Part shown: positions 3,480-50,298 of the stretch, piece by piece
Numbering within the stretch: position 1 is the stretch's first letter
Layout: every line of letters begins with the position of its first letter
NCBI RefSeq assembly: GCF_022842145.1
Contig: NZ_JALHQD010000009.1
Span: 62,001 to 126,000, forward strand
DNA: 64,000 nucleotides
Source of the DNA: Tabrizicola sp.
GTDB lineage: Bacteria > Pseudomonadota > Alphaproteobacteria > Rhodobacterales > Rhodobacteraceae
Direction: 5' to 3'
Made by a program: the position numbers and the translations under genes
The notes under the pieces: generated by a model
The model's database searches: none
What the model was told of the DNA's origin: nothing
What the model saw: the letters and a program-made list of their open reading frames with translations, nothing else

Positions 3480-3559
3480 GCGCGATTCCCCTTTCCGGAG
3501 GTTGGGATTTTCCGGGTGGCCACGGGCAATGTGTTGAAAAGGAATGGAAATGGAAATTG

Positions 3560-3572: not shown

Positions 3573-3581
3573 ACGGCAACC

Positions 3582-4672: not shown

Positions 4673-4738
4673 GTCGGGTCCTTGTGGCGGGCGGTTGTCG
4701 AATGGAGCGCGTTCCGCGCGCGGCTTTTGTCTCGGCCC

Positions 4739-4804
4739 TGCGTGTGAAGAACACGCAAGGCCTCGGCGAGCCTCCGGCGGGGATATTTGGTGCCAGGTGA
4801 AAGC
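4739..4804. repeat. gap with a hairpin and a Rhodobacteraceae-type intergenic repeat element
   Basis: The 139-base gap between the flavoprotein and RidA genes holds a 7-bp hairpin (TGCGTGT/ACACGCA, 4739-4757). It is followed by CCTCCGGCGGGGATATTT (4771-4788) and a GGTGAAAG tail. From memory, this GGCGGGGATATTT element recurs between genes in Rhodobacter, Paracoccus and roseobacter genomes. It occurs once in this window, so repetitiveness cannot be shown here. Confidence 0.35.
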
Positions 4805-7645: not shown

Positions 7646-7740
7646 CGGGTTCTCCTGTCGTTGCTTGGCCATCCTGAGTGAGGCCCGGTGCGTCGGCTAT
7701 ACCCCTTGGAATTCCTCCCACTGCTAGTTTAACTGGTCCC

Positions 7741-7756
7741 GGGGGTATATACCCCC
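7741..7756. promoter_or_regulatory. perfect 16-bp palindrome, candidate operator of the LuxR-type regulator
   Basis: GGGGGTATATACCCCC is perfectly symmetrical and sits in the divergent control region, 13 bases before the regulator ATG and 95 bases before the amidase ATG. A half-site-like ATACCCC recurs at about 7699-7705. This fits autoregulation plus control of the amine cluster (inference). Confidence 0.5.
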
Positions 7757-7768
7757 AGTGAGGTATGC

Positions 7769-8551
7769 ATGAGGGAACCCGCGACGGGGGTCGAACCGCA
7801 GCTGGCCAGGGTCATCGCAGCCCTAGGCAAGCCCCAGTTCGAGGAGGCGCTTTGGCAGATGCTGCTGGCGCTTGCGCGACCGGACAACATGCTGGTGCTG
7901 GGCTACAGCGATGGCGGGCCGGCGCTGGAGCTGTGCCGTCGGGCGGGGAACGAGCGGGTCTTTGCGCGGCTGCAAAGCACCTACATGGCGGGCGCGTTCC
8001 GGCTGAGCCCTTTTTACGGGCTGCACCTGCAGCGCGCCGATGAGGGGCTTTACCGGCTGCGCGACATTGCGCCGGACGCGTTCCAGCGGAGCCGCTTTTA
8101 TGTCGAATACTTCGGGCAGACGACGATCATCGACGAGGTGGCGTTCACTGTCTGGCTGGGCGCGGGGCTTTCACTGAACCTGTTTCTGGGCCGGGATGGT
8201 CAATCGGGGAAGGTCTTCTCGCCCGCCGAGATTGCGGCCTGCCGCCGGATCGCGCCGGTTGTCGCGGAACTTGCGCGGGCGCATTGGCCGGTGCCGAAAC
8301 TGGCAGCGCCGCTGGTCGAGGATACCCCGGCCCGGCTTGCGGCCGCGGCCGAGCAGCGCCTGGGGATCGGGTTGTCGCCCCGGCAGGCTCAGGTGGCGGT
8401 GCTGATCCTGAAGGGGCATTCGACGCTGTCGATCGGGCTGAAGCTGGGGCTCTCGCCGCAAACGGTGAAGGTCTTCCGCAAGCAGCTTTACGCGCGTTGC
8501 GCGATCTCCTCGCAAGCTGAACTTTTCGCGCTGATGCTGCCCTTGCTGTAG
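7769..8551 (+). CDS. LuxR-family (GerE-type helix-turn-helix) transcriptional regulator
   Basis: A 260-residue protein. The C-terminal 65 residues form a LuxR/GerE helix-turn-helix (LSPRQAQVAVLILKGHSTLS, then LGLSPQTVKVFRKQLYAR). The N-terminal 180 residues are not a recognisable autoinducer-binding or response-receiver domain; no phospho-acceptor Asp pocket is obvious, so a small-molecule sensor is likely. It is divergent from the amine-catabolism cluster and shares the palindrome at 7741-7756 with it, making it the probable local regulator. Its stop is 3 bases from the convergent pstA stop. Confidence 0.88.
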   Translation: MREPATGVEPQLARVIAALGKPQFEEALWQMLLALARPDNMLVLGYSDGGPALELCRRAGNERVFARLQSTYMAGAFRLSPFYGLHLQRADEGLYRLRDIAPDAFQRSRFYVEYFGQTTIIDEVAFTVWLGAGLSLNLFLGRDGQSGKVFSPAEIAACRRIAPVVAELARAHWPVPKLAAPLVEDTPARLAAAAEQRLGIGLSPRQAQVAVLILKGHSTLSIGLKLGLSPQTVKVFRKQLYARCAISSQAELFALMLPLL

Positions 8552-35679: not shown

Positions 35680-36936
35680 TCAGGCCTTGTCCAGTTCGAA
35701 CGTGTCGTGCAGGGCCTGGACGGCAAGCTCCATGTACTTGCGGTCGATCAGGACGCTGATCTTGATCTCGGAGGTGGTGATGACCTTGATGTTCACGTTC
35801 TCGGCCGCGAGGGCTGCGAACATCCGGGCGGCGACGCCGACCTGGCTGCGCATCCCGATGCCGACGACCGAGACCTTGGCGACGTCGCTGTCGGTGACCA
35901 GCGTGGTGTAGACGAACTTGCCTGCCGCCGAGGCGTCCTCGATCGCCTTCTTCGCGCGGTCGACCTGGTTCGTGGGCAGGCTGAAGGTCATGTCGGTGTG
36001 GGCGCGCTTGTCGGTCGGGTCGTCCTGTTCCGAGATGTTCTGGACGATCATGTCCACGTTGACACCGGCATCCGCCAGCGTGCCGAAGATCGCGGCGGCC
36101 ACGCCGGGGCGGTCCTCAACCTTCAGGAGGGTCATCTTCGCCTCGTCGCGGGAATAGGCGACGCCGGACACAACTTTCGATTCCATGATTTCATCCTCGT
36201 CGCAGACCAGGGTTCCAGAGTTTTCGTCGACCTCTTCGAAGGAAGAGACGACCCGCAGCCGCACCTTGTAGCGCATCGCCAGTTCGACGGACCGGGTCTG
36301 CAGGACCTTGGCGCCCAGCGAGGCGAGTTCCAGCATCTCCTCGAAGGCGATCTTGTCCAGCTTGCGAGCCTTGGGGCTGATGCGGGGGTCGGTGGTGTAG
36401 ACGCCATCGACGTCGGTGTAGATGTCGCAGCGTTCGGCCCCGAAGGCGGCCGCGAAGGCGACAGCGGTGGTGTCCGAGCCGCCACGGCCCAAGGTGGTGA
36501 TCCGGCCCTCGGCGCTGACGCCCTGGAAGCCGGCCACGACGGCGACCTTGAAGCCTTCGGAGAACTTGGCGTCGATGTTGTCGCGGGGGATCGAGACGAA
36601 ACGGGCCTGGCCGTGGGCCGAGGTCGTGTTGATCGGCACCTGCCAGCCCTGCCAGCTGCGCGCTGGCACGTCCATTTCCTGCAGGCGCAGCGCCATAAGG
36701 CCAGCGGTCACGTTCTCACCACTGGACACCACGGCGTCGTATTCGCGGGCGTCGTAAAGCTTGGAGGTCGTCTCGACCCAGCCCACCATCTCGTTGGTCT
36801 TGCCGGACATCGCCGAGACGATGACGATGACGTCATAGCCACGGTCAACCTCGGCCTTCACCTTCCTGGCGGCGTTCTCGATCCGCGCCAGATCCGCGAC
36901 CGAGGTTCCGCCGAATTTCATCACCAGAAGCGGCAT
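35680..36936 (-). CDS. lysC: aspartate kinase
   Basis: A 418-residue protein catalysing ATP-dependent phosphorylation of aspartate, the first step to Lys, Thr, Met and diaminopimelate. The kinase signature LVMKFGGTSV is at about residues 4-13; TTLGRGGSDTTAVAFAAAFG and YTDVDGVYTTDPR follow. Two ACT regulatory domains fill the C-terminal 150 residues (VEDRPGVAAAIFGTLADAGV, VGIGMRSQVGVAARMFAALA), implying feedback inhibition. The start at 36936 is preceded by GGGGGAGGG. An upstream in-frame ATG at 36999 lacks a matching site. Confidence 0.97.
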   Translation of the reverse strand: MPLLVMKFGGTSVADLARIENAARKVKAEVDRGYDVIVIVSAMSGKTNEMVGWVETTSKLYDAREYDAVVSSGENVTAGLMALRLQEMDVPARSWQGWQVPINTTSAHGQARFVSIPRDNIDAKFSEGFKVAVVAGFQGVSAEGRITTLGRGGSDTTAVAFAAAFGAERCDIYTDVDGVYTTDPRISPKARKLDKIAFEEMLELASLGAKVLQTRSVELAMRYKVRLRVVSSFEEVDENSGTLVCDEDEIMESKVVSGVAYSRDEAKMTLLKVEDRPGVAAAIFGTLADAGVNVDMIVQNISEQDDPTDKRAHTDMTFSLPTNQVDRAKKAIEDASAAGKFVYTTLVTDSDVAKVSVVGIGMRSQVGVAARMFAALAAENVNIKVITTSEIKISVLIDRKYMELAVQALHDTFELDKA

Positions 36937-37011
36937 GCACCCTCCCCCTTGGGTCTGCGAAAACGTGGGCTTCTTATGCGGGGGTTCGCCCCTGCGCAAG
37001 GGGCGGCGCCG

Positions 37012-37890
37012 TCAGTCCAGCCGGTAGTCCACGGGCTGTAGCGGCGGGGGCGCGGGCTCATCGAGGTGGGGGGCAAGCGATATCTCCGCCGTGCGGCAGA
37101 TCGCGTCCAGGGGGAGCGCGTTGGCGGTCTTGCCGAAGGGATGGGCAAGCTCCTCGGTCACCTCGGCCAGGCCGAAGAAGGTGTAGGCGACGATGACGGC
37201 GAAAAGGGGGGTGAGCCAGCCGGTGGGTTCGAGAAGTGCGAAGGGCAGAAGGAGGCAGTAGAGCCAGCTCGTCCGGAAGATGAGGAGCGAGTAGACGTAA
37301 GGCAGCGGGGTCAGCCTGATCCGCTCGCACCCGGCCTGGGCCAGCGCGATGGTGGAAAGGCGGGTGGAGAGCGTGCGCGCGCCAAAGCCGTCCAGACGGC
37401 CGTGGCGCAGGGCGTCGCCGAGATGAACGCTCATCGCGTCAAGGGTGGCGTCGGGGGTCGGTGCGGCGTGAGCGTCGCGCAGGGCCTCGGCGTCGGGGGG
37501 CAGATCGCGGAGCGCGCAGCGGTGCTGGTGCAGGAAGGCGCGCATCGCGGTCAGGAGGCGGCGGCGGTCGGCTGGGTCGTTGAGGAAGATTTCCGCCTCA
37601 CGCGCGATGCTGCGGGCGTCGGCGAGGAGGCCGCCCCAAAGCCGTCGCGCTTCCCACCAGCGGTCGTAGGCGGCGTTGTTGCGGAACCCGAGGAAAAGCG
37701 AGAGGGCGACGCCGAAGACGGCCAGCGGCGCGGCCTGGACATGGGGCAGCGTCAGGACATGCCGGTCGATGGCGACGATGGCGGCAGAAAAGAGGGCGAC
37801 GAACAAGAGTTGCGGCGCGATATGCGGCAGGACCGAGCCGCGGACGGCGAAAAGGAGGGCGAGGATGCCGGGCTTGTCGCGGAGGATCAT
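37012..37890 (-). CDS. bestrophin-family ion channel protein
   Basis: A 292-residue membrane protein with four hydrophobic segments. The bestrophin/UPF0187 signature [20 protein letters not shown] lies at about residues 65-85, and [20 protein letters not shown] near the C-terminus is the second hallmark. Bacterial homologues form pentameric ion channels. Its start overlaps the purD stop by 4 bases (ATGA), so it is translationally coupled to a purine biosynthesis gene; the physiological link is unclear. Confidence 0.9.
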
Positions 37891-39155
37891 TCGGGCAGCG
37901 CGCGCCAGCCGATGTCGGATCGGCAGAAGCCCTCGGGCCAGTCGAGAAGGTCGATCATCGCATAGGCGCGGTGGTGGGCTTCCTCCAGCGTGGCCCCCCG
38001 GGCGGTGATGTTCAGGACGCGGCCGCCGTTGGCGGTGACAAGGCCGTCGCGCAGGGTGGTGCCGGCGTGGAAGACCATGTGGCGGCTGTCCTCGGGCATC
38101 CGGTCGAGGCCGTTGATCACGCTGCCCCTGGCATAGGCGCCGGGGTAGCCCTTTGCGGCCATGACCACGGTCAGGGCGTGGTCGTCGGCCCAGTTGACCT
38201 GGGCCTCGGCCAGACGACCCTCGGCGGTCGCCAGCATCAGGTCCAAAGCCTGAGCGCCGAGGCGCATCATCAGGACCTGGGCTTCCGGGTCGCCGAAGCG
38301 GGCGTTGTATTCGACGAGGCGCGCGCGGCCGTTCTCGATCATCAGACCGGCGTAGAGGACGCCCTGATAGGGTGTGCCGCGGCGGGCCATCTCGCGGATG
38401 GTGGGCAGGACGATCATGTCCATCGCCTGCTGTTGCAGGGCTTCGGTCAGGACGGGGGCGGGGGAATAGGCGCCCATGCCGCCGGTGTTGGGGCCGGTGT
38501 CGCCGTCGCCGACGCGTTTGTGGTCCTGGGCGGTGCCGATGGGCAGGGCGTTGGTGCCGTCGGTCAGGATGAAGAAGCTGGCTTCCTCGCCCGCCATGAA
38601 TTCCTCGATCACCACCTCGGCCCCCGCTGCACCGAACTCGCCGCCGAACATGTCGTCGATGGCGGCAAGGGCTTCAGCTTCCGTCATTGCGACGATGACG
38701 CCCTTGCCGGCGGCGAGGCCGTCCGCCTTGACGACGATGGGTGCGCCCTGCTGGCGGATGTAGGCCTTGGCGGGTTCGGCTTCCGTGAAGCGGGCGTAGG
38801 CGGCGGTGGGGGCGGCGCAGGCGTCGCAGATTTCCTTGGTGAAGGCCTTCGACGCCTCCAGCTTGGCCGCGGCGACGGAGGGGCCGAAGGTCAGAAGGCC
38901 CGCCGCGCGGCAGGCGTCGGCGACCCCGGCGGCCAGCGGCGCCTCGGGGCCGACGATGACGAAGTCGATGGTGTTTTCCTCGCAGAAGGTGACCACGGTC
39001 GCCCCGTCGAGGATGTCGATGTCGGCGCATTCGGCCAGCATGGCGATGCCCGCATTGCCGGGGGCGACGATCAGCCGGTCGCACTTGGGGTTCTGCTTCA
39101 CCGCCCAGGCGAGGGCATGTTCGCGGCCACCGGAGCCGAGGATGAGGATATTCAT
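37887..39155 (-). CDS. purD: phosphoribosylamine-glycine ligase
   Basis: A 422-residue ATP-grasp enzyme of purine synthesis making glycinamide ribonucleotide. Visible are [70 protein letters not shown] and [17 protein letters not shown], the family blocks in the expected order and length. It is followed without gap by the bestrophin gene. Confidence 0.98.
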
Positions 39156-39219
39156 GGCCGCGCCCCCGCTTGGAAATCTGGTGCTTGCGTCATAGGGTCA
39201 GGTGGGCAGGGAGGCAAGC

Positions 39220-39492
39220 ATGGACCCGGACGCAGGCCTTGGGATCGGACAGGACAAAGCGACAGGCGGTGCGCAAAGGCCGCGGCCATCGGTCTTCGTG
39301 CGAGGGCTTGAGATGGCGGGCCTTGGGCTGGTGATCTACGGGCTGGCGACCTCTCGCATCTGGCTGGCTGTGCTGGGTGGGGCCGTGATCCTGGGCAGCT
39401 ATGCGCTTTACCGCAGGACGCATCGCGAGGCTGTGGACCGCGGACCCGACTATGGACCTGACGGCCCGGATGCCGATGGCGGGGGCGACTAA
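39220..39492 (+). CDS. small membrane protein of unknown function
   Basis: A 90-residue protein with one long or two short hydrophobic segments (VRGLEMAGLGLVIYGLATS, IWLAVLGGAVILGSYALYRR). A basic loop precedes an acidic Asp/Gly-rich tail. ATG 39220 is preceded by GGGAGG; an upstream GTG at 39202 is not. No family was recognised. It is divergent from purD, so it may share the purD control region. A hypothetical inner-membrane protein is the best call. Confidence 0.6.
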   Translation: MDPDAGLGIGQDKATGGAQRPRPSVFVRGLEMAGLGLVIYGLATSRIWLAVLGGAVILGSYALYRRTHREAVDRGPDYGPDGPDADGGGD

Positions 39493-39587
39493 GCGCCGAC
39501 GCCGCGCTGCGCATGTGCAGCGGCGGAACCCTGCCAGACGCTTTGACGTTGGCTGCGTGACATTCCCTTACAAGATAGGACCATGCC

Positions 39588-40148
39588 ATGCAGAGCATTC
39601 AAGGCAAGCGCATTGCCATTCTGGCGACCCACGGGTTCGAGCAATCCGAGCTTGAGGTGCCGCTGGAGAAACTCCGCGCCGCTGGTGCGGAAGTTCACGT
39701 CATCGCGCCAGAGGGGGGCGAGATCAAAGGCTGGCAAGGCAAGGACTGGGGCAACGCGGTGCCGGTCGATGCGGTGCTGTCCGAGGTTGATGCCTCGGCC
39801 TATGACGCGCTGGTCCTGCCGGGCGGGCAGATGAATCCGGACCTGCTGAGGGTTGAGGGGGAAGCCATCGCCTTCATCAAGTCGTTCTGGACGGCCGGCA
39901 AGGTGATCGGTGCGATCTGCCATGCGCCCTGGCTGCTGATCGAGGCGGGCATCGCCGACGGTCGCAGGATGACGTCCTACGGGTCGATCAAGACCGATGT
40001 GAAGAATGCTGGCGCGGACTGGATCGACGCCGAAGTGGTGACGGACCAGGGCCTTGTCACCAGCCGCAAGCCCGAGGACCTGCCGGCCTTCTGCGCCAAG
40101 CTGATCGAAGAGATCGCCGAAGGCACGCACCAGCGCGCAGCGGCGTGA
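39588..40148 (+). CDS. DJ-1/PfpI family glutamine-amidotransferase-like protein
   Basis: A 186-residue protein of PfpI/YhbO type. IAILATHGFEQSELEVPLEK opens the domain, YDALVLPGGQMNPDLLR carries the conserved Glu-side region, and GAICHAPWLLIEAGI holds the nucleophile Cys (about residue 107) followed by His. Members act as deglycases, chaperones or stress hydrolases against aldehyde damage. It is monocistronic, and ATG is 57 bases before the end of a GC-poor leader. Confidence 0.93.
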   Translation: MQSIQGKRIAILATHGFEQSELEVPLEKLRAAGAEVHVIAPEGGEIKGWQGKDWGNAVPVDAVLSEVDASAYDALVLPGGQMNPDLLRVEGEAIAFIKSFWTAGKVIGAICHAPWLLIEAGIADGRRMTSYGSIKTDVKNAGADWIDAEVVTDQGLVTSRKPEDLPAFCAKLIEEIAEGTHQRAAA

Positions 40149-40202
40149 TCCTTTCCGATTCCGGCGCTTCATCTTCGCGTCGGGATCGGGCATCAATGGC
40201 CT

Positions 40203-41771
40203 ATGAGCGAGTTATTCGAAGACGACTCCGCCGCTCCTATCGGCAACCAGCCCGAATACACCGTGTCCGAGCTTTCGGGCGCGGTGAAACGCGTGATCGA
40301 GGGTGAGTTCGGGCTGGTGCGGGTCCGGGGTGAGGTGGGGCGGGTGTCGCGTCCGGCCTCGGGGCATCTTTACTTCGATCTGAAGGATGACCGCAGCGTC
40401 ATCGCGGCGATCATCTGGAAGGGGCAGGTTGCCCGGATGCAGGTCCGCCCCGAAGAGGGGATGGAGGTCGTCGCCACCGGGCGGATGACGACGTTTCCGG
40501 GGCAATCCAAGTATCAGCTGATCGTCGATGACGTCGCCCCGGCGGGCGCAGGCGCGCTGATGGCGATGCTGGAAAAGCGGAAAGCGGCGCTGGGGGCCGA
40601 GGGGCTGTTCGACGCCGCGCGCAAGAAGCCGATCCCCTATCTGCCCAAGGTGATCGGGGTCGTGACCTCGCCCAGCGGCGCGGTGATCCGGGACATCCTG
40701 CACCGCCTCCGCGACCGTTTTCCCCGGCATGTGCTGATCTGGCCGGTTGCGGTGCAGGGGCAGGGCTGCGCGGCAGAGGTTGCGGCGGCGATCCGGGGTT
40801 TCAATGCGATCGAGCCCGGCGGGCCGATCCCGCGGCCGGACGTGCTGATCGTCGCGCGGGGCGGCGGGTCGCTGGAGGACCTTTGGGGGTTCAACGAAGA
40901 GATCGTCGTCCGGGCGGCGGCGGGGTCGGCGATCCCGCTGATCTCGGCTGTGGGCCACGAGACGGATACCACGCTGATCGACTATGCGGCGGACCTGCGG
41001 GCCCCGACGCCCACGGCGGCGGCGGAGCTGGCGGTGCCGGTGCGGCTGGAGCTTCTGGCAACGCTGGAGGCGCTGGGCGCGCGGCTGGTGCGGGGGATCG
41101 GGCAGGGGGTGACCTCGCGCCGGCAGCGGTTGCGCGATCTGTCGCGCGCCTTGCCGCGGGTGGAGACGCTGGTGGCAACGCCCCGGCAACGGCTGGATAC
41201 CTGCGGGATGCGGCTGGGGTCTGGCCTTGGGCTGGCGGTGGCGAAGAAGCATCGCGAGTTCGACCGGGTGGCGGGACGGTTGCAGCCAGCGGCGCTGCGG
41301 GGGCTGGTGGCGCGGCAGCGGGACCTGCTGGCGGCGCGGGAGGAGCGGCTGGCCCGCGCGATCCTGCTTCGGCTGGAGCGGCGGGGCGAGCGGCTGGAGG
41401 CTCTGGCGGCGCGGCTGGCCCCGGCGCTGGCGCGGATGCTGGGCGAGGCGGGGCGGAAGGTCGGCGACGGGCGGCGGGACCTGGCGCGGCTGGGCGACCG
41501 GCTGGAGGCGGCACCGGCTGCACGTTTCGCGCGGCTGAAGGACCGGCTGGAGGCGCTGGACCGGACCCGGACGACGCTGGGCTATGCCGAGACCTTGAAG
41601 CGGGGCTACGCGGTCGTGCGGGGGGACGGGGCGGTCGTCACCTCGAAGGCGGGGGCGGAGAAGGCGGCGGCGCTGGAGATCGAGTTCCAGGATGGGCGGC
41701 TTCTGGTCGGGGGACGGGGCGGGAAGAAGGGTCGGGGCGAGGGCGAAAGCGGGCAGGGAAGTCTGTTCTGA
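40203..41771 (+). CDS. xseA: exodeoxyribonuclease VII large subunit
   Basis: A 522-residue protein with an N-terminal OB fold (FGLVRVRGEVGRVSRPASGH, LYFDLKDDRSVIAAIIWKGQ). The catalytic XseA core has VIGVVTSPSGAVIRDILHRL, VLIVARGGGSLEDLWGFNEE and VGHETDTTLIDYAADLRAPT. A long Arg/Ala/Leu-rich coiled coil and a C-terminal segment (TLGYAETLKRGYAVVRGDGA) follow. With XseB it degrades single-stranded DNA in repair. It is longer than E. coli XseA (456) through the coiled coil and a Gly/Arg-rich tail. xseB is not nearby. Confidence 0.96.
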   Translation: MSELFEDDSAAPIGNQPEYTVSELSGAVKRVIEGEFGLVRVRGEVGRVSRPASGHLYFDLKDDRSVIAAIIWKGQVARMQVRPEEGMEVVATGRMTTFPGQSKYQLIVDDVAPAGAGALMAMLEKRKAALGAEGLFDAARKKPIPYLPKVIGVVTSPSGAVIRDILHRLRDRFPRHVLIWPVAVQGQGCAAEVAAAIRGFNAIEPGGPIPRPDVLIVARGGGSLEDLWGFNEEIVVRAAAGSAIPLISAVGHETDTTLIDYAADLRAPTPTAAAELAVPVRLELLATLEALGARLVRGIGQGVTSRRQRLRDLSRALPRVETLVATPRQRLDTCGMRLGSGLGLAVAKKHREFDRVAGRLQPAALRGLVARQRDLLAAREERLARAILLRLERRGERLEALAARLAPALARMLGEAGRKVGDGRRDLARLGDRLEAAPAARFARLKDRLEALDRTRTTLGYAETLKRGYAVVRGDGAVVTSKAGAEKAAALEIEFQDGRLLVGGRGGKKGRGEGESGQGSLF

Positions 41772-41880
41772 ACGGCCATGTCCAGGCTGGACGGATTTGC
41801 GTTTACGCGCGGATCAATGGCTTGTCTGTGGACGTTCAGGTCCCTAACCAATTGGCGCGCCGTTCGGGATGGAGAGCGGG

Positions 41881-41928
41881 AAATTCCTTGAGTAAGGAAT
41901 TTGACAAATTTCTTGCTTGAGAAATTTG
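41881..41928. repeat. two tandem AT-rich inverted repeats between convergent units
   Basis: AAATTCCTT/AAGGAATTT (9-bp arms, GAGT loop, 41881-41902) and CAAATTTCT/AGAAATTTG (9-bp arms, TGCTTG loop, 41905-41928) stand two bases apart. They are starkly AT-rich against the GC-rich background. They lie between the ends of xseA and the leftward six-gene array. Bidirectional termination is possible, but neither has a U-tract. Confidence 0.7.
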
Positions 41929-41963
41929 GTTCCCGGTTGGGGTGCGGTGCTTTGGCGAGTCTC

Positions 41964-42377
41964 TCAGACGCCGAAGAAGCCTTCGCAGGTGACCACCTCT
42001 TCGGCGGGATAGAGCATGATCGGAGCGGTCGCCCGGTCGCCGTCGAGCCAGGCCATCAGCCAGTCGCCGCGGTCGTGGTAGGTCCAGCAATAGGGGAAGG
42101 GCTCGCCCTGGTAATCGAAGCAGATCTGGTCGCCTTGCGGCCGCCAGGTGCCTTCAAGGCATTGATCCGCATCGCGCCAGATCGCGCGGCGGCCGGGCAG
42201 GAAGGTCTCGACGCCGTAGCGGCCGGTCTGGTCGTGGGTGTCGAAGGTGCGGCCCTGGACGAAGGCTTCGAAGTCCTCGACCGAGAGCGGCGGGTCGCTG
42301 TCGGCCAGGGCTGGGGCAGGCGGAAGCGCGAGGGCGCACAACAGGGCGAGGGTCAGCGCAGGCCGGAGGCGGGACAT
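41964..42377 (-). CDS. secreted four-cysteine protein, array copy 6 (last in operon)
   Basis: A 137-residue protein of unrecognised family, sixth and most diverged of six tandem paralogues. The Sec signal peptide spans residues 1-25 (ALALPPAPALA). The mature part has LSVEDFEAFVQGRTF, YGVETFLPGRRAIWR, ICFDYQGEP and YCW, with four cysteines (in DQC, ICF, YCW, VTC). It ends in EGFFGV rather than the GPxVGV of its siblings. ATG overlaps the previous copy's stop by one base (TGATG). Predicted periplasmic and disulfide-bonded, with an all-beta, DUF995-like look (tentative). Function unknown. Confidence 0.85.
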   Translation of the reverse strand: MSRLRPALTLALLCALALPPAPALADSDPPLSVEDFEAFVQGRTFDTHDQTGRYGVETFLPGRRAIWRDADQCLEGTWRPQGDQICFDYQGEPFPYCWTYHDRGDWLMAWLDGDRATAPIMLYPAEEVVTCEGFFGV

Positions 42378-42766
42378 CACGCGCCGACCTCGGGTCCGAA
42401 GCAGGCGAGGGGTTCGGTCGTCTCGGCCACGACGACCGGCTCGGAGTCCGGGGCAGTGCCGGCGTAACGGGCGTGCAGGCCGGAGGCGGCTGCGGTGATC
42501 TCCCAGCAGTCGGGGGCCGGGTCGCCCTCATACTGAAAGCAGATCATCCGGCCTTCGGGATACCAGTGGCCGACCTTGCAATCGTCACCCAGCACGGTCC
42601 AGCGGACGCGGCGGCCGGGCAGGTATTGCTCGACCCCGTAGACCTGGCCGAATTCGGCCCAGGTCATGGTGCGGCCCTGGGTGAGGGCGTCGAAGGTTTC
42701 GGCGGTCAGGGGGGCTTCGGCAGAGGCGGGGATGGCCAGGAGGAGGAGAAGGCAGGCTGCGCGCAT
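42377..42766 (-). CDS. secreted four-cysteine protein, array copy 5
   Basis: A 129-residue protein. Signal peptide 1-16 (MRAACLLLLLAIPASA). The mature domain shares LTAETFDALTQGRTMTW, YGVEQYLPGRRVRW, GHWYPEGRMICFQYEG and DCW with its neighbours, and ends ACFGPEVGA. Four Cys are placed as in the other copies (one extra in the signal). It starts one base after the stop of copy 4 (TGACATG), so re-initiation or coupling is expected. No enzymatic motif is visible. Confidence 0.87.
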   Translation of the reverse strand: MRAACLLLLLAIPASAEAPLTAETFDALTQGRTMTWAEFGQVYGVEQYLPGRRVRWTVLGDDCKVGHWYPEGRMICFQYEGDPAPDCWEITAAASGLHARYAGTAPDSEPVVVAETTEPLACFGPEVGA

Positions 42767-42767
42767 G

Positions 42768-43151
42768 TCAGACGCCCACCTCGGGGGCACAGGTCAGGGG
42801 CGTGGTGGCGGGCGTGACGGTCTGGGCGGCATCGTCCGGACCGGCGTTCTGGGGCTTGGCGCGGATTATGCCGCCCTCGCGCCAGTAAAGCCAGCAGTGG
42901 CGCTGGTCGCTGCCGTCGTAGACGAAGCAGACGGCGGGGCCGTCGGGATACCACAACCCGTCGCGGCAGGGGCCGCCGGTATCGGCGTCGCGGACGCGGC
43001 GGTCGGGAAGATAGGCCTCGGACCCCAGGATCGTGCCGTGCCCGGAATAATCGAGCGTGCGGCCGGTGGCGAAGGTCTCGAACTCTTCGGGGGTCATCGG
43101 CTGGGCGGCGGCCATCGGGGCTGCGACGACAAGGGCCAAGGCCAGCCGCAT
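42768..43151 (-). CDS. secreted four-cysteine protein, array copy 4
   Basis: A 127-residue protein. Signal peptide 1-16 (MRLALALVVAAPMAAA). The mature part contains MTPEEFETFATGRTLDY, LGSEAYLPDRRVRD, GLWYPDGPAVCFVYDG, HCW and the tail LTCAPEVGV. The aromatic after the RRVR motif is lost (DAD instead of W-x), so this copy has drifted at a site conserved elsewhere. The longer open frame upstream lies inside copy 3 and is not used. The start overlaps the copy 3 stop as TGATG. Confidence 0.87.
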   Translation of the reverse strand: MRLALALVVAAPMAAAQPMTPEEFETFATGRTLDYSGHGTILGSEAYLPDRRVRDADTGGPCRDGLWYPDGPAVCFVYDGSDQRHCWLYWREGGIIRAKPQNAGPDDAAQTVTPATTPLTCAPEVGV

Positions 43152-43540
43152 CAGACCCCGACCTCGGGTCCGGGGCAAGGGAGCGGCTTGTCGCTGGATT
43201 CGACCTCGTAAAGCTCTTCGCCAGGCTGGCTGTCGGTCGACAGGGCGACGAGCGCCCCGTCCTTCAACCAGAAGGTCCAGCAATGCGGGACCGGGTCGTA
43301 TTCGTAGACAAAGCAGATGTCGTCCTCTTGCGGATACCAGCTGCCGTATTGGCAGAGGTCGGGCGAGACCGACCAGCGGACCTTGCGGTCGGGCAGGTAT
43401 TCCTCGGTACCGAAGACATAGTCGAGTTGGCGGTAGGTCACGGTCTTGCCGGTGACATGGGCATCGAACTGGTCGGCCGTCATCGGGATTTCAGCAAGCG
43501 CGGGGGAGGCGAGGAGGAGGGCGAGCCAAAGGGAGCGCAT
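43151..43540 (-). CDS. secreted four-cysteine protein, array copy 3
   Basis: A 129-residue protein and a good reference copy. Signal peptide 1-16 (MRSLWLALLLASPALA). Mature motifs are MTADQFDAHVTGKTVTY, FGTEEYLPDRKVRW, GSWYPQEDDICFVYEY, HCW and PLPCPGPEVGV. Four Cys suggest two disulfides. It starts one base after the stop of copy 2. Many Asp/Glu and aromatic residues are spread as in a small beta barrel or sandwich. Confidence 0.88.
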   Translation of the reverse strand: MRSLWLALLLASPALAEIPMTADQFDAHVTGKTVTYRQLDYVFGTEEYLPDRKVRWSVSPDLCQYGSWYPQEDDICFVYEYDPVPHCWTFWLKDGALVALSTDSQPGEELYEVESSDKPLPCPGPEVGV

Positions 43541-43541
43541 G

Positions 43542-43943
43542 TCAGACCCCTACGTCCGGGCCGGGGCAGGCGAGCGGGTCTCTCGATCGGCCGGTTTCGC
43601 GGATTTCGATCGGCGCGGAACTGCCCGAGCCGAGTTCGGTGGCGGTGCCACGGAGACCTTCGCCGTCCTGGAAGATATGCCAGCAGGCCGAAAGGCGGCC
43701 GTCGGGGTAGGCGAAGCAGATCTCGTCGGTTCGGGCAAACCAGAGGCCGTCGAAGCAGGGTTCCCCCTCGAAGGCCCACCGAAGGGTGCGGTCCGGTCCG
43801 TAATCGGCCGAGCCGCGTTCGCCGGTGCTGTAGACGTAGGTGACCGTATCGGTGCCGACATGGGCGGCGAAGGCATCGGCTGTCAGCGGAGTATCAGCCA
43901 GGGTCGGGCCGGCCAGAAGGCAGGCAAAGACAGCCGCGCGCAT
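43542..43943 (-). CDS. secreted four-cysteine protein, array copy 2
   Basis: A 133-residue protein. Signal peptide 1-16 (MRAAVFACLLAGPTLA). Mature motifs are LTADAFAAHVGTDTVTY, YGPDRTLRWAFEGEPC, GLWFARTDEICFAYPDG, ACW and ACPGPDVGV. It shares RWAFEG with copy 1, suggesting these two are the closest pair. A longer frame upstream belongs to noise across copy 1 and the alkB-like region. TGATG overlap with copy 1. Confidence 0.87.
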   Translation of the reverse strand: MRAAVFACLLAGPTLADTPLTADAFAAHVGTDTVTYVYSTGERGSADYGPDRTLRWAFEGEPCFDGLWFARTDEICFAYPDGRLSACWHIFQDGEGLRGTATELGSGSSAPIEIRETGRSRDPLACPGPDVGV

Positions 43944-44335
43944 CAGACGCCGACGTCCGGTCCGGCGCAGGGCAAGGGGCCGCCGTCGCGGGAGGATTCC
44001 AGGATCTCCCAGCCGCCGCCGTCGCCCATGTAGCGACCGCGGATCTTGCCGTCTTCCAGGAAGTAGAGCCAGCAGGCCGCGCCGGGTTCGTTTTCGTATT
44101 CGAAGCAGATCTCGTCGTCCTTCTGATACCATACGCCGTAGATGCAGAGGTCGCCCTCGAAGGCCCAGCGGACGCGGCGGTCGTCGAGGTATTCCTCGGT
44201 GCCGAAGAGGCCGTCGCCGTAGTCGTAGGTGATGGTATCGCCGCGGGTGGCGGCGTCGAATTGATCGGCGTTGAGCGGGGTCTCGGCGAAGGCCGGGGTC
44301 GAGGAGAGGATCAATGAGACGAGAAGAATGCGCAT
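43943..44335 (-). CDS. secreted four-cysteine protein, array copy 1 (first in operon)
   Basis: A 130-residue protein. Signal peptide 1-17 (MRILLVSLILSSTPAFA). Mature motifs are LNADQFDAATRGDTITY, FGTEEYLDDRRVRWAFEG, GVWYQKDDEICFEYEN, ACW and PLPCAGPDVGV. ACGGAG precedes the ATG, the only copy with a free-standing ribosome site. It lies 56 bases after the AlkB-like gene on the same strand, so the array may be read through from it or from a promoter in that gap. Function unknown. Confidence 0.88.
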   Translation of the reverse strand: MRILLVSLILSSTPAFAETPLNADQFDAATRGDTITYDYGDGLFGTEEYLDDRRVRWAFEGDLCIYGVWYQKDDEICFEYENEPGAACWLYFLEDGKIRGRYMGDGGGWEILESSRDGGPLPCAGPDVGV

Positions 44336-44391
44336 CCGGGGCTCCGTAGGAAATTGTCGGGAGAGTGCCAGACCTGCGCCCGGTTGGCCAG

Positions 44392-45453
44392 TCAAGCCGC
44401 CGTGTCCGCAGGGGCCGGGGCGGGTGGGGAATTCCGCAGGCGGGCAAGGTGCGGGGCCATCGCGCGACGCCAGAGGCGGGGAGCAAGGGCGAGCATGCAG
44501 GCCAGCGGCAGGGGCCAGGGCAGGCGCGGCGCGGCGTCCGGCAGCCGAAGCGCGGGGAAGGGGCGCGAGGGGTGGACGTGGTGGTCGGAATGGCGCGGGG
44601 CGTTCAGCATCAGGGCCGAGGTGAACCAGTGGGCGGTGTTCCAGCTGTGCCCCAGGCCCACGGGTTCCACCTTGCCGCCGGGCAGGCGGGCGCGCGTGAG
44701 GCCGTAGTGCTGGACGTAGTCCGACAGCAGGATCTGGCTTTGGGCGTGCAGGGCAAGGCCGGTCCAGACCAGAAGGCCCGGCAGGCCCGCAATCAGGGTC
44801 GCAAGGACAAGGGCCACCGCGCTGCCAGTCAGGTAAAGCGTGTAGGGGTGGAGGCCGGTATGGGTTTTGCGCAAGGCGGTCTCGGCGCGGGCGCCTGCGC
44901 GGAAGCTGCCGATCCAGGCGCGGCGGGCAAAGCGGTAGAAGCTTTCGCCGTCGCGGGCGGTGTTGGGATCGTCGCGCGTGGCCACCGCGCGGTGGTGCAC
45001 GAGGCGGTGGGCGCTAGCGTGCTGGCCAAAAAGGATCGCCGCGTAACAGGCCGCGCCCAAGCGGAAGAGGCTGCGCTGCGGGCGGTGGATCAGTTCATGC
45101 GCGGCAGGGTGGGCGACTTGGCCGAGCCAGAAGCCGGTGGCGCAAAAGAGGAGGACCTTTTCGCCCGCATCCAGCCCGCTGTCGCCGGCGATGGCCCAGG
45201 TGGTGACAGGCAGAACGGCGAACGCTCCGAGGCCCACCGCGACAAGGAGGGCATCGGCCGCGGGAAACTCGGCGTCTTCGGCGGTTCCTGCGGTCACGGG
45301 GACAAGCTGGTCGAGGAGCAGCGTGAGGACGCCCATGTAGAGAAAGGCCGCCCAGAGCCAGGCCCCGCCCTGAGCGACCCCGAACGCAAGGAGCGGCAGC
45401 GGCAGGAGGGCCGCGAAGGCGAAGGCGGTCAGGGGCAGGGGGCGGGCTTGCAT
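44392..45453 (-). CDS. AlkB-like alkane/fatty-acyl membrane hydroxylase (di-iron)
   Basis: A 353-residue integral membrane protein with six or more hydrophobic segments. Histidine boxes of the AlkB/desaturase superfamily are HPAAHELIHR (about 112-121), SAHRLVHH (about 146-153) and PRHSDHHVHP (about 285-294), plus the SDYVQHYGL motif typical of alkane hydroxylases. It should hydroxylate a terminal methyl of an alkane or alkyl chain using O2 and rubredoxin electrons; no rubredoxin gene is nearby. A GMC alcohol oxidase and aldehyde dehydrogenase pair about 30 kb away could complete the route. Confidence 0.9.
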   Translation of the reverse strand: MQARPLPLTAFAFAALLPLPLLAFGVAQGGAWLWAAFLYMGVLTLLLDQLVPVTAGTAEDAEFPAADALLVAVGLGAFAVLPVTTWAIAGDSGLDAGEKVLLFCATGFWLGQVAHPAAHELIHRPQRSLFRLGAACYAAILFGQHASAHRLVHHRAVATRDDPNTARDGESFYRFARRAWIGSFRAGARAETALRKTHTGLHPYTLYLTGSAVALVLATLIAGLPGLLVWTGLALHAQSQILLSDYVQHYGLTRARLPGGKVEPVGLGHSWNTAHWFTSALMLNAPRHSDHHVHPSRPFPALRLPDAAPRLPWPLPLACMLALAPRLWRRAMAPHLARLRNSPPAPAPADTAA

Positions 45454-45503
45454 CAGGGCTTGGTCCGGAGAAAGCTGGCGGGCAGTAGGGTGCAGGGACG
45501 GCT

Positions 45504-45818
45504 ATGCCGGACAACTTGGGCGAAACGCTGGCGCTTGCAACTGCAATGATGGCGCTGGCGGCGGCTGTGGCCTACGGGCGGGGTTTCGCGACGCGGGACG
45601 TGGCGGGCACGACAGGGGCTGCGGTCAAGACGGTCTCGACGGGCCTGCTTTCGGCACTGGCGCTGGTGATGCCCTTTGGCTGCTGGTTCTGGATCCCGCT
45701 GGGGCTTGCCCTGGGCGCGTTGGGCGATCTTTCGCTGGCGCGTATGGGGGGGCGGCGTCTGGCCTTGGCCCTGGAGCGCGGGTCTGACGGCCTTCCAATG
45801 CGGGGGCAAAGGGACTAG
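45504..45818 (+). pseudogene. truncated YhhN (lysoplasmalogenase-like) remnant
   Basis: A 104-residue open frame. The segment AAVKTVSTGLLSALALVMPF then GLALGALGDLSLAR matches the N-terminal half of YhhN membrane proteins (usually about 210 residues), including the GD-x-x-L-A-R motif. After LAR the sequence turns polar and stops; no second half with further membrane helices exists before ftsY 30 bases later. A deletion during fusion with the ftsY leader is the simplest reading. It could still be translated as a short membrane protein. Confidence 0.6.
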
Positions 45819-45848
45819 GTGAAAGAAAACAGCCCGGAGAGCCTGCCC

Positions 45849-47027
45849 ATGTCGTTCTTCAAGAAGCTCAAGGAGCGGATGTTCCGGTCTTCGGACAAGA
45901 TCGGCGAGGGGCTGGAGGCGCTGGTCTCGGAGGGGGCGGAGGACGTCAAGGACCCGGGGCAAGCGATCCCCGAGCCGGTGCTGGACGTGAGCCAGGCCGT
46001 CGCGCCGGGCCTGCCGGAGGTTGACGAGCCCGAGGCCGCCGCGTCCATTGACCCGGCCCCTGCCGCCCGTCGCGCCGCTTCGGTCGCGCCCCAGCCCGAG
46101 TCCCGGACCCAACCCCAACCCGAGCCCGAGCCGGAGGCCGCCAAACCCGGCCTTCTGGGGCGGCTTTTCGGGCGGGTGGCGGTCGAGGAGCCTAAGCGCG
46201 TCCTGGACGATGCCATGCTGGAAAGCCTGGAAGAGTTGCTGATCCAGGCCGACATGGGCGTCGACACGGCGGTCAGGGTGACGGCGAACATCGCCGAGGG
46301 GCGGTTCGGCCGCAGGATTTCCACCAGCGAGTTGCGCGCGGCACTGGCGGCGGAAGTCGCCCGGATCATGGAGCCGGTGGCGCGGCCGATGCCCTTGTAT
46401 CCGCAGAAGCCTCAGGTCGTGCTGGTCGTGGGCGTGAACGGGTCGGGCAAGACGACGACGATCGGCAAGCTGGCGTCGCAGTTCAAGGCCGCGGGCAAGA
46501 CCGTGGTGATTGCGGCGGGCGACACCTTCCGGGCGGCTGCGGTGGAGCAGTTGCAGATCTGGGGCCAGCGGGCCGGGGTGCCGGTGCTGACCGCGCCGGA
46601 GGGGTCAGACCCGGCCTCGCTGGCGTTCGACGCGCTGACCAAGGCGCGGGCAGATGGCGCGGACCTTCTGATGATCGACACCGCGGGGCGCTTGCAGAAC
46701 CGGCAGGACCTGATGGAGGAGTTGGCGAAGATCGTGCGGGTGATCCGCAAGGTCGACCCGACGGCGCCGCACAACACTCTGTTGGTGCTGGACGCGACGA
46801 CGGGGCAGAACGCGGTGGCGCAGGTCGAGATCTTCCGCAAGATCGCCGATGTCTCGGGGCTGGTGATGACCAAGCTCGACGGCACGGCCAAGGGCGGCGT
46901 CCTTGTGGCGCTGGCCGACAAGTTCGGGCTGCCGATCCATGCCATCGGCGTCGGCGAGCAGATCGACGACCTGGCGCCCTTCGACCCGGAGGAGTTCGCC
47001 CGCGCGCTGGTCGGGGCCGAGGGGTGA
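45849..47027 (+). CDS. ftsY: signal recognition particle receptor FtsY
   Basis: A 392-residue protein. A variable acidic, Pro/Glu-rich A domain (about 1-105) precedes the NG domain. GTPase motifs are VVGVNGSGKTTTIGKLASQF, DTFRAAAVEQLQIW, LLMIDTAGRLQNRQDLMEEL and TKLDGTAKGG. It docks ribosome-SRP complexes at the inner membrane. Start 45849 (MSFFKKLKERMFRSSDKIGE) matches the family and follows GGAGA. The gene heads a chain of overlapping genes ending with yciB. Confidence 0.97.
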   Translation: MSFFKKLKERMFRSSDKIGEGLEALVSEGAEDVKDPGQAIPEPVLDVSQAVAPGLPEVDEPEAAASIDPAPAARRAASVAPQPESRTQPQPEPEPEAAKPGLLGRLFGRVAVEEPKRVLDDAMLESLEELLIQADMGVDTAVRVTANIAEGRFGRRISTSELRAALAAEVARIMEPVARPMPLYPQKPQVVLVVGVNGSGKTTTIGKLASQFKAAGKTVVIAAGDTFRAAAVEQLQIWGQRAGVPVLTAPEGSDPASLAFDALTKARADGADLLMIDTAGRLQNRQDLMEELAKIVRVIRKVDPTAPHNTLLVLDATTGQNAVAQVEIFRKIADVSGLVMTKLDGTAKGGVLVALADKFGLPIHAIGVGEQIDDLAPFDPEEFARALVGAEG

Positions 47028-47938
47028 TCCGGGCGGGGCTTTTCGCGCTGCTGCTGGCTTCGCCGGCGGGGGCGGAAAGCTTCTGTGCAACGGCTTGGGA
47101 GAAGGTCGCGGCCGGATTGACGGCCCTTGGCACGGTCAGCGGCAGCGTGGCGCAGGACGGCGACTGGTGCGTTGTTCAGGGCGCGGTTCTGGACCTTGAC
47201 GGGCCGTACCTGCCGGATTGGCACGTGGACCGGCTGCGGTTCCGCGGCGCGGCGCTGGGCTGGCTGGTGGACGGCACAGGTGCTCCGGACGGGCTGGAGA
47301 TCGGCGTCGAGGGGCTGCGGCTGGTGGTCCAGACCGGCGATGCGCAGATGGACTGGCTTTTGGCGGCGCAGGCGCGGCCGAATGCGATCCGGGCCGAGGC
47401 TTCGCTGGCCTGGGATGCGGCGGCGCGGGAGTTGCGGCTTGAAGGGCTGAGCATCGACTTTCCGGGCGAGAACCTGGTGGAGCTTTCGACTGTCGTGGCC
47501 GGGGTGGACCTGTCCTCGACCGGGGCGATGCAGATGTCGGCCACAAGTTTTGCGGTGACCGAGGCGGACCTGGCGGTCACGACACATGGTCTGTTCGAAT
47601 GGTATCTGCTGATGGCGGTGGGGCCGAGCGTTCTGCCGACCGAGGGCGACATGGAGGCCGCGGCGGAGGGTCTGCGGGCCGCGATGCGCGCCGCTGTGGC
47701 TGACCTGCCCGGGATCAGTTTTTCGGACGCCAGCAAGGCTGCGCTGGGCGCGCTGATTGGCGAACTGCCAAACCCATCGGGCGACCTGGTGGTGTCCTTG
47801 CGGTCCGAGGCCGGTTTCGGGCCGTCGCGCCTGATGCCTTGGGCGATGACCGGGGTGCCAAAGACTTTGGCCGAGGCGGCGGGGGTGCTGAACGGCGTCA
47901 CCGTCGAGATCGGATGGACCCATGCCGATGCTCCGTAA
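47024..47938 (+). CDS. secreted protein of unknown function, paralogue A
   Basis: A 304-residue protein starting at a GTG that overlaps the ftsY stop (GTGA). Signal peptide 1-17 (LFALLLASPAGA). The mature N-terminus has CATAWEKVAAGLTALG and WCVVQGAVLDLDGPYLPDWH then VDRLRFRGAALGW. This block reappears in the next gene, so the two are diverged tandem duplicates. No known domain was recognised. A long amphipathic beta-rich repeat layout suggests a periplasmic or outer-membrane-associated role (inference). Confidence 0.75.
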   Translation: MIRAGLFALLLASPAGAESFCATAWEKVAAGLTALGTVSGSVAQDGDWCVVQGAVLDLDGPYLPDWHVDRLRFRGAALGWLVDGTGAPDGLEIGVEGLRLVVQTGDAQMDWLLAAQARPNAIRAEASLAWDAAARELRLEGLSIDFPGENLVELSTVVAGVDLSSTGAMQMSATSFAVTEADLAVTTHGLFEWYLLMAVGPSVLPTEGDMEAAAEGLRAAMRAAVADLPGISFSDASKAALGALIGELPNPSGDLVVSLRSEAGFGPSRLMPWAMTGVPKTLAEAAGVLNGVTVEIGWTHADAP

Positions 47939-48794
47939 GATCGGACTTCTGGGGCTGCTTGCAGGGCCGGTTGCGGCGGAGCCTGCGGGCTGCCCCGAGC
48001 TTGCAGCGGCGCTGGAGGGCCTGACAGGGTATCAGGTCACCGCCCCTCCCGCGGGGCCGGAAGGCGGGTGGTGCGTCTTTGACCGGGCGGTGCTGAAGGC
48101 GGAAGGCGGGCCGGATTTTGCAGCAGAACGGTTGCGGCTGCGTGGGGAGCTGGCCGATGGCGCGCTGGTGGAACTGGCGGTGGAGGCGGACGGGGTCCGA
48201 CTGGCGCCCGGCCTTGGGCAGCGGGACCTGGACCCGGTTCTGCGTGAGACGCTGCGGTTTCAGACGGCGGCGGTGGCGTTCGTTGTGACGGTCGGCCCCG
48301 AGGGGCTGGGGCTGCGGGGCGGGGTGGTTCGGCTTTCGGGCGGAACTGAGCTGAAGGTCGAAGCGGATCTGGCGGGGGCGGGGTTGTCGGCGGGGTCGCT
48401 TCTGCTGGGGCGGCTGACCTGGGCGCGGCTGGACTGGCGGAACGATGGAAAGCTGTTGCGGCCGGTGACGGAGCGGTGGGGCGAAAGTCTGGTGGACGGC
48501 GCCCTTGGCGGAAAAGCGGTCGATGCCGCGCGACTGGCGTTGCAGCATATGGTCCTAAACCTGCCGACGTCCCTGCTTCCGGAAGATGGGAAGGACAGGC
48601 TGGACGACGTGCTGGACGCCGTGCCGCAAGGCCGGGGGCGGGTGTTCCTGGAGTTCCGCTTGGCCGAGGGGATCGGTGCGGCGCAGGTCGCCGTAGCGAT
48701 GCTGTCCGGAGACCCGCTTGGCCCGGAGGCTCTGGCGCGGTTGTTCGCCGGGGCAGAGCTGGCGGTGGACTGGCAGCCGGGGCTGGTCCCTTGA
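47922..48794 (+). CDS. secreted protein of unknown function, paralogue B
   Basis: A 290-residue protein overlapping paralogue A by 17 bases. Signal peptide 1-19 (GLLGLLAGPVAA). CPELAAALEGLTGYQV, WCVFDRAVLKAEGG and ERLRLRGELADG align with paralogue A, including the paired cysteines. ATG 47922 or 47928 could start it. Downstream the two proteins share overall length and pattern but little identity. Function unknown; conservation of the pair next to ftsY and yciB would be informative. Confidence 0.75.
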   Translation: MPMLRKIGLLGLLAGPVAAEPAGCPELAAALEGLTGYQVTAPPAGPEGGWCVFDRAVLKAEGGPDFAAERLRLRGELADGALVELAVEADGVRLAPGLGQRDLDPVLRETLRFQTAAVAFVVTVGPEGLGLRGGVVRLSGGTELKVEADLAGAGLSAGSLLLGRLTWARLDWRNDGKLLRPVTERWGESLVDGALGGKAVDAARLALQHMVLNLPTSLLPEDGKDRLDDVLDAVPQGRGRVFLEFRLAEGIGAAQVAVAMLSGDPLGPEALARLFAGAELAVDWQPGLVP

Positions 48795-49690
48795 CCGAAT
48801 ACCTGCGGTCGATCGAGGGGACGCCTGCGGGGCATGACATGGCCTTGGCGCTCGCGCTTCTGGCGGCGGTGCTGCATGCGCTGTTCGGGGCGTTGCAGAA
48901 GGGTCGGCATGATCCCTGGCTGTCACGGGCGGCCATCGACGCGAGTTACGGGGTGATCGCGCTGCCCTTCGCGCTGTTCGTGGTGCCCTGGCCCGAGCCG
49001 CACATGTGGCCGATCTTCGCAGGCGCCGTGCTGATCCACATCGTCTACAAGGTCTTGCAGGCGATGACCTATACGCGGGGAGCCTTCACCGTAGTCTATC
49101 CGGTGGTGCGTGGGACGGGGCCGTTCTTCACGGTGATCGGGGCGGGGATCGTCTTTGGCGAGACCTTTGCGCCCGGCCAGTGGGCGGGGCTGGCGCTGCT
49201 GGTGGGCGGAATCCTGGGGCTGGCGGTCTGGAACCTGACCCATGTCACGGTGGACCGGGCGACGATGGTCCCCGCACTGTGGCTGGCGGTGGCGACGGGG
49301 GCGATGGTGGCGGTCTACACCACCTATGACGCCTACGGCATCCGGGCGACGGCGGACCCGTTCACCTTCCTGGCGTGGTTTTTCCTGCTGGACGGCATCT
49401 TCATCCCGCTGGTCACGCAGCGCCGCTGGCGGCAGCTTCCCGCCGCCGAGATCGTGCCCTTGCTGAAGCGGGGTGTTCTGGGGGCTTTCGTCGCCTATTT
49501 CAGCTTCGGCTCGATCATGCTGGCGACCCGGCTGGACAAGGTCGGCGAGGCGGCGGTGTTGCGCGAAACCTCGACCGTATTTGCCGCCTTGATCGGCTGG
49601 CTGGTTCTGGGCGAGAAGGTGGGGCCCGTCAGGGCAGGTCTGATGGCGCTGATCGCCGTTGGCGCAGTGATCATGGAATGGGCGGGATAA
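48791..49690 (+). CDS. DMT-superfamily (EamA) membrane protein
   Basis: A membrane protein with ten hydrophobic segments: LLAAVLHALFGALQKGRHDP begins the core, VYPVVRGTGPFFTVIGAGIV ends the first EamA half, and TRLDKVGEAAVLRETSTVFA lies in the second. The TTG at 48791 overlaps the previous stop (TTGA) and gives 299 residues; ATG 48839 would give 283. The upstream start is preferred because the chain of overlaps continues and the extra residues lead straight into the first helix, but this is uncertain. Likely a metabolite transporter. Confidence 0.8.
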   Translation: MTEYLRSIEGTPAGHDMALALALLAAVLHALFGALQKGRHDPWLSRAAIDASYGVIALPFALFVVPWPEPHMWPIFAGAVLIHIVYKVLQAMTYTRGAFTVVYPVVRGTGPFFTVIGAGIVFGETFAPGQWAGLALLVGGILGLAVWNLTHVTVDRATMVPALWLAVATGAMVAVYTTYDAYGIRATADPFTFLAWFFLLDGIFIPLVTQRRWRQLPAAEIVPLLKRGVLGAFVAYFSFGSIMLATRLDKVGEAAVLRETSTVFAALIGWLVLGEKVGPVRAGLMALIAVGAVIMEWAG

Positions 49691-50298
49691 TGGCCGAGCG
49701 GAAGATCAACCCGATACTGAAGCAGGTCCTGGAGCTGGGACCGACGATTCTGTTCTTCCTGGTCTACATGCGGATCAAGGACGACAGCTACAGCTTCGCG
49801 GGGACCGAATATTCTGGCTTCATTGTGGCAGCCCTGATTCTGGTGCCGCTTCTGCTCGCTTCGACCTTTACGCTGTGGTTGTTGACGGGAACGATCAGCC
49901 GGATGCAGATATTCGTGGCCGTGATGGTGATCTTTTTCGGCGGGCTGACTGCCTGGTTCAACGACGAGCGGTTCTTCAAGATGAAGACCACCATCGTCTA
50001 CGGGACTTTCGCGGTGATCCTGGGGATCGGGTTGATGCGCGGGAAAAGCCTGCTGCAATGGGTGATGGCCGAGGCTCTGCCCATGAAACCAGAGGGTTGG
50101 ATGATCTTGACCCGGCGGCTGACGGTCATGTTCGCAGCGCTGGCCGTGGTGAACGAGATCATCTGGCGGACCCAGTCGACCGAGCTTTGGGTCAAGCTGG
50201 AGACCTTTGCGATGCCCGCGGCATTGTTTCTGTTCCTGATGGTAAACTTCATGGCACTGCAGCGCTTCATGATCGAGCCCGAGGCCGGGAAGGACTGA
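49690..50298 (+). CDS. yciB: YciB/IspZ inner-membrane septation protein
   Basis: A 202-residue protein with about five membrane helices. NPILKQVLELGPTILFFLVY at the N-terminus, MVIFFGGLTAWFNDERFFKM and NEIIWRTQSTELWVKLETFA are the family blocks. YciB affects cell-envelope integrity and septation, interacting with divisome proteins in E. coli. TAATG overlap with the DMT gene shows coupling. The ftsY-to-yciB stretch reads as one envelope/secretion operon. Confidence 0.94.
   Translation: MAERKINPILKQVLELGPTILFFLVYMRIKDDSYSFAGTEYSGFIVAALILVPLLLASTFTLWLLTGTISRMQIFVAVMVIFFGGLTAWFNDERFFKMKTTIVYGTFAVILGIGLMRGKSLLQWVMAEALPMKPEGWMILTRRLTVMFAALAVVNEIIWRTQSTELWVKLETFAMPAALFLFLMVNFMALQRFMIEPEAGKD

Follow-up and report, generated by a model that had tools for sequence, protein, structure and literature searches.

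The window analyzed here, a 64,000-nucleotide stretch of Tabrizicola sp. (contig NZ_JALHQD010000009.1, positions 62,001 to 126,000), carries on its minus strand, at positions 41964-44335, six paralogous genes encoding products of 127-137 amino acids and designated g1 to g6 in 5' to 3' order. These six genes are an expanded form of a family that is usually represented by one gene at a locus between xseA and ftsY, and each of them corresponds to a position (slot) in the arrays found throughout the genus. Our best guess, to which we assign a probability of about 0.38, is that the genes encode exported barrels, every one of them adapted to a small hydrophobic ligand of its own. According to this proposal, each product would be exported by Sec and fold into a calycin-like barrel of eight strands, accompanied by one helix and containing two disulfides, and every barrel would accommodate a hydrophobic or amphipathic small molecule. 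A single conserved ligand would be served by the one-copy protein, the slots would have changed their binding residues so that the array covers a set of related ligands, and an AlkB-like membrane hydroxylase encoded upstream could be a consumer or producer of such ligands. The genes of the array are as follows:

43943..44335, minus strand: g1, slot 1, 130 amino acids; the slowest-evolving slot, with copies from 30 loci in its clade.
43542..43943, minus strand: g2, slot 2, 133 amino acids; the rarest slot, with 6 clade members and presence in 5 of 23 intact arrays.
43151..43540, minus strand: g3, slot 3, 129 amino acids; nearest to the one-copy form (mean identity to its consensus 0.53), and the copy whose structure was predicted.
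42768..43151, minus strand: g4, slot 4, 127 amino acids; the slot lacking W56.
42377..42766, minus strand: g5, slot 5, 129 amino acids.
41964..42377, minus strand: g6, slot 6, 137 amino acids, with its ATG at 42377; farthest from the one-copy consensus (0.34).

Using g3 as query, the other five genes were recovered in their own genome with E-values of 3e-38 to 6e-17, and the six products share 18 invariant columns, four of them cysteines; homology among the six is therefore well above chance. The four cysteines are present in all 185 sequences compared, comprising genus slots and one-copy relatives. A first-pass annotation based on the sequence alone had proposed six genuine paralogues with a common exported domain and four fixed cysteines, and the open reading frames, the invariant columns and the g3 search bear this out. 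It had also described the junctions as strictly alternating, which is correct for all five junctions of the window (1-base overlaps, TGATG, and 1-base gaps, TGACATG) and does not extend to the family as a general trait: among 118 junctions in genus arrays and in two arrays from other genera, gaps mostly span -4 to +5 (100 of 118), the most frequent being -1 (27), +1 (24) and +4 (20), and one slot pair can show differing gaps from genome to genome. Alternation as the mark of a gene-pair duplication was rejected, both on this variation and because slots 1, 3 and 5 do not form one group and slots 2, 4 and 6 another. The close joining of the genes suggests co-translation of the set. A scan of window positions 36000-50000 against Rfam yielded no match at gathering scores.

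Across the genus (Tabrizicola and relatives), matches were retrieved in 31 of 32 genomes and the locus was examined in 30 genomes (the window, G191 and 28 others, leaving out the matching genome G289). Trees were built from whole copies only. In the tree of 163 sequences, each gene of the window falls in a genus-wide clade that excludes the other five, with 30, 6, 29, 22, 23 and 24 members and FastTree Shimodaira-Hasegawa-like support of 0.91, 0.99, 1.00, 0.72, 0.96 and 1.00 for slots 1 to 6, respectively. Deep relations among slots differ between the three trees. A second copy lying near slot 6 is found in Rhodobacter SW2 in one tree and in SW2 and Gemmobacter in another, and the SW2 copy is not grouped with slot 6 in the third. 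Read from the AlkB side, slot labels ascend from 1 to 6, with gaps. This order has a few exceptions: L042 has a second copy, which sits on a long branch and joins clade 4 basally; L096 carries slot 6 twice; and L103, L107 and L111 contain extra copies preceding slot 3, three in all, which match no gene of the window and were kept without a slot label. Counts of slots were taken from intact arrays with at least 500 bases on both sides, leaving out 8 of 31 loci (contig edge or incomplete copies). Among these 23 intact arrays, slots 1 and 3 are always present (23/23), slots 5 and 6 occur in 19, slot 4 in 16 and slot 2 in 5, in combinations that include 13456, 1356, 134, 136 and 135. Genus-wide clades and a retained order with gaps indicate that the array probably predates the genus and that copies were lost one at a time, with no sign of homogenisation; the duplications are thus old, as the first-pass annotation had supposed. 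One genus array (L105, genome G265) contains, among whole copies, two incomplete ones with stop codons, at 3385-3642 and 4445-4801.

Orthologues within slots are under purifying selection, stronger in slot 1 and weaker in slots 2 and 4. The ratio of nonsynonymous to synonymous substitution rates (dN/dS) was estimated by the Nei-Gojobori method for pairs with dS of 0.05-1.5 (420, 14, 406, 193, 253 and 251 pairs for slots 1 to 6), yielding medians of 0.15, 0.48, 0.32, 0.40, 0.29 and 0.25 and no pair above 0.83; the sequences are GC-rich and partly saturated, so the absolute values are rough, and paralogue ratios, which lie near 1, were left aside. Mean identity of the mature parts is 0.84, 0.52, 0.69, 0.55, 0.66 and 0.75 in the same order. 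Low dN/dS within slots points to past specialisation followed by conservation rather than to ongoing diversification. Gene-wide positive selection was rejected on these values, and the selection to diversify invoked in the earlier reading is not supported as an ongoing gene-wide force. The same data bear on neutral or dosage duplication with no division of labour, for which the repeated tandem copying in several lineages and the two copies with stop codons in G265 could be cited; separate slot identities kept across the genus, dN/dS well below 1 and the invariable presence of slots 1 and 3 in intact arrays render it very improbable.

Slots 1, 3, 4, 5 and 6 are mutually distinct, with a signature of 112.6 bits where 20 label shuffles reached no more than 26.3; slot 2, with its 6 members, was excluded from this test, and the second L042 copy was excluded from slot 4 here and in the dN/dS analysis. 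The reference set of one-copy proteins was reduced from 59 to 52 by removing five repeated loci and two slot-1 copies on short genus contigs, and two of the 52 (L152 and L161) share a fragmented assembly and are possibly not single copies. Residues that are near-invariant in one-copy proteins and kept at 80% or more in all six slots are F25, G44, C63, G66, W68, C76, F77, C87, W88, C122 and G128. Other one-copy residues have changed in a slot-specific manner: Y28 to H in slot 3 (25/29) and L in slot 5 (23/23), F101 to Y in slot 1 (28/30) and S in slot 3 (27/29), Q86 to A in slot 1 (29/30) and H in slot 4 (18/21), L110 to P in slots 5 (20/23) and 6 (23/24), F58 to D in slots 4 (18/21) and 6 (24/24), and W56, present in 52 of 52 one-copy proteins, to D in slot 4 (20/21). 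When a single binder gives rise to several with differing ligands or targets, just this pattern would be expected: a constant scaffold with slot-specific change at positions that one-copy proteins keep fixed. The arrays amount to a natural experiment, with one barrel, six slots and 30 genomes, in which residues that changed after duplication can be told from those that did not, and ligand or target specificity is directly testable by swapping a few residues between slots of an aquatic bacterium.

Slot-keeping also occurs in other lineages. Four copies are present in L245 at the same xseA-ftsY type of locus, three-copy sets in L248 (5004-6330) and L249 (5421-6753), and more loosely spaced three-copy sets in L246 (4618-6228) and L247 (3661-5207). 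Copies pair in order between genera, L248 with L249 and L246 with L247, which extends slot-keeping beyond the genus of the window. L244 (5090-7778) has five copies, with one wider gap, at another locus, and L250 has one copy and, some 2 kb from it, a pair; in L244, L246 and L247, none of the three usual neighbors lies inside the fetched stretch. A divergent copy beyond xseA in L252 (7907-8302) groups in the tree with the L244 copies, apart from the slots of the window, and L168 has a divergent copy (7438-7830) on the opposite strand, at a distance of about 3 kb.

All six products start with a short hydrophobic leader that carries positive charge and ends in an A-x-A-like site. In a loose motif test run without a negative control, 155 of 163 family members showed such a leader and none of the 163 a lipobox; this combination indicates that the products are probably Sec-exported soluble proteins. 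Their predicted location is in the first place the periplasm of a Gram-negative cell, or beyond it, and strict secretion may be considered a possibility. The genome of the window also encodes, away from the array, a seventh relative with two cysteines (C1:593275-593580; L007:1459-1815), which has no Pfam family and 291 database relatives. This two-cysteine family aligns with the mature-domain profile of the array family at a score of 37.2, where 30 shuffles reached no more than 16.0, and shows the same predicted order of a helix and eight strands. It retains the equivalents of C76 and C87 but not C63 and C122, and because only the former pair is retained, disulfides C76-C87 and C63-C122 are suggested for the array products.

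The first-pass annotation had recognized no named family, and library searches agree. Across 66 members including the six, Pfam matches were few and weak, without a pattern (the best, E 0.005, occurred in 2 of the 66), and NCBIfam returned no family; the best NCBIfam value in any search was E 0.02, for one single-copy relative. The best PDB match by sequence or profile had E 0.39, and PADLOC and PHROGs searches with the six were empty; a role in anti-phage defense was rejected on the latter two results. The family is present in most sampled Rhodobacteraceae genera, yet no Pfam or NCBIfam model recognizes it and the searches turned up no function for it. The tentative likeness to DUF995 (PF06191) noted earlier survives at a distance. 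PF06191 itself matched none of the 66 members at E 0.5 or better and none of 41 relatives, own genome included, in a scan in which the controls were silent too; it was matched in 2 of 190 genomes of the class, the window's own genome not among them. Compared with a set of two PF06191 proteins (three domains; 28.9 and 20.9 bits versus a cut-off of 20), the mature-domain profile nonetheless scored 34.3 in hhalign (probability 82.7), with 30 column shuffles reaching no more than 17.0, and by this profile comparison the family is a remote relative of DUF995-type proteins. Both are small exported proteins with G-N/K-T, G-x-W and C-F/W-like spots and a second C, whereas the array family has four cysteines and a C-x-GP-x-VGV tail. 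Literature searches (DUF995, Tabrizicola, potempin, lipocalin, TP0435, ToxS), which mostly did not extend to subscription papers, returned no description of the array, and the one on DUF995, with the same coverage, returned only an unrelated rice gene paper. Within the literature searched, the family, its wide presence in Rhodobacteraceae and its fixed-slot arrays would seem to be new; tandem sets of paralogous binding proteins are an already known kind.

The AlphaFold model of g3 consists of one helix and eight strands, and the predicted fold is probably a small calycin-like barrel. Its top structural neighbors are TP0435, ToxS and bacterial lipocalin-like proteins, with potempin E and Omp19 also among the likenesses, and the best Foldseek match in a viral fold library had E 0.017. 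The calycin and lipocalin fold carries a G-x-W motif in its first strand; in the array family the first strand of the model starts at T33 and the motif (G66-x-W68) lies not there but within strand 4 (62-71). The array family further differs from these barrels in that no sequence similarity to them was found and in the absence of a lipobox noted above. Slot-changed sites are weakly biased to the barrel end with loops 1-2, 3-4, 5-6 and 7-8 (p = 0.033, 0.051), and they do not differ between inner and outer strand faces, guessed by alternation (p = 0.31). ToxS, a top structural neighbor, pairs with ToxR as a heterodimer (title of 8alo), and together with the tight junctions and fixed order of the array this could speak for subunits of a mixed oligomer, or for accessory or chaperone barrels of an envelope complex, diversified to assemble as a fixed set. 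Slots 2, 4, 5 and 6 have been lost independently among the 23 intact arrays, which argues against an obligate hexamer, and most genera have one copy; we regard such an assembly as unlikely.

The array is flanked by the following genes:

44392..45453, minus strand: AlkB-like alkane 1-monooxygenase homologue, 353 amino acids (PF00487, E 2.9e-23; PDB 8f6t, alkane 1-monooxygenase, E 4.7e-33).
40203..41771, plus strand: xseA, the convergent neighbor (TIGR00237, E 1.9e-127).
45819..47027, plus strand: ftsY, the conserved neighbor on the divergent side (TIGR00064, E 4.5e-100).

The AlkB-like gene lies 56 bases upstream of g1 on the same strand, and purD is next beyond xseA. The family was matched in 203 of 248 Rhodobacteraceae genomes, a sample close to one genome per genus, and mostly as a single copy, copy numbers being lower bounds with up to 17 candidates scored per genome. 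A class-wide draw gave matches in 12 of 289 genomes, four from the same family (own genome included) and eight from outside it at E 1e-12 to 3e-4. The usual place of the one-copy gene has ftsY divergent on one side and xseA convergent on the other, often with an AlkB-like hydroxylase gene immediately upstream on the same strand. Among loci with room for the neighbor in question, xseA is the convergent neighbor in 21 of 24 genus loci, and the AlkB-like gene is a direct neighbor in 27 of 28 genus loci (window excluded) and in 40 of 50 loci among L145-L197, a series that includes seven multi-copy loci, two short genus contigs (L155 and L181) and repeated genomes. It is also adjacent in 8 of 14 one-copy loci from other genera.

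The structural likeness to potempin E and Omp19 lends equal support to a set of exported enzyme inhibitors. In the manner of potempins and Omp19-type proteins, every barrel would then inhibit its own protease, lysozyme-like enzyme or other hydrolase, in the periplasm or outside the cell. The genes of potempin-like inhibitors adjoin those of their target proteases, whereas the array has no protease gene directly adjacent, its neighbors being the AlkB-like gene, xseA and ftsY, then purD. The resemblance is moreover confined to the overall predicted barrel: no sequence match to these inhibitors was found, neither Pfam (E 0.5) nor NCBIfam (E 0.01) returned an inhibitor family, and purifying selection within slots is unlike an arms race. 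Inhibition is rated only a little below the ligand proposal. The calycin-like fold, the AlkB-like neighbor and the constrained slots place small hydrophobic ligands slightly ahead of protein targets, the ligand step itself being one that we infer. Counts at the genome level weigh against ligand-tuned barrels. Scoring as the AlkB locus type homologues with E 1e-60 or better, 108 genomes have both AlkB and barrel, 15 AlkB only, 95 the barrel only and 30 neither, a weak link (odds ratio 2.3, p = 0.02, kinship not corrected) that weakens the case for a strong tie of the family to AlkB. A more specific proposal, which we consider rather improbable, is that the one-copy protein works as partner to an AlkB-type hydroxylase and that the genus arrays form a fixed-order, co-translated panel of ligand-specific carriers, evolved several times independently; if true, the panel would be a bacterial counterpart of odorant-binding-protein clusters. 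The threshold of 1e-60 was set inside a gap in best E-values between 1e-66 and 6e-51, and the AlkB-like gene of the locus forms a class apart from the other AlkB homologues of Rhodobacteraceae, with E of 1e-66 or better in 123 of 248 genomes and 6e-51 or weaker in the rest.
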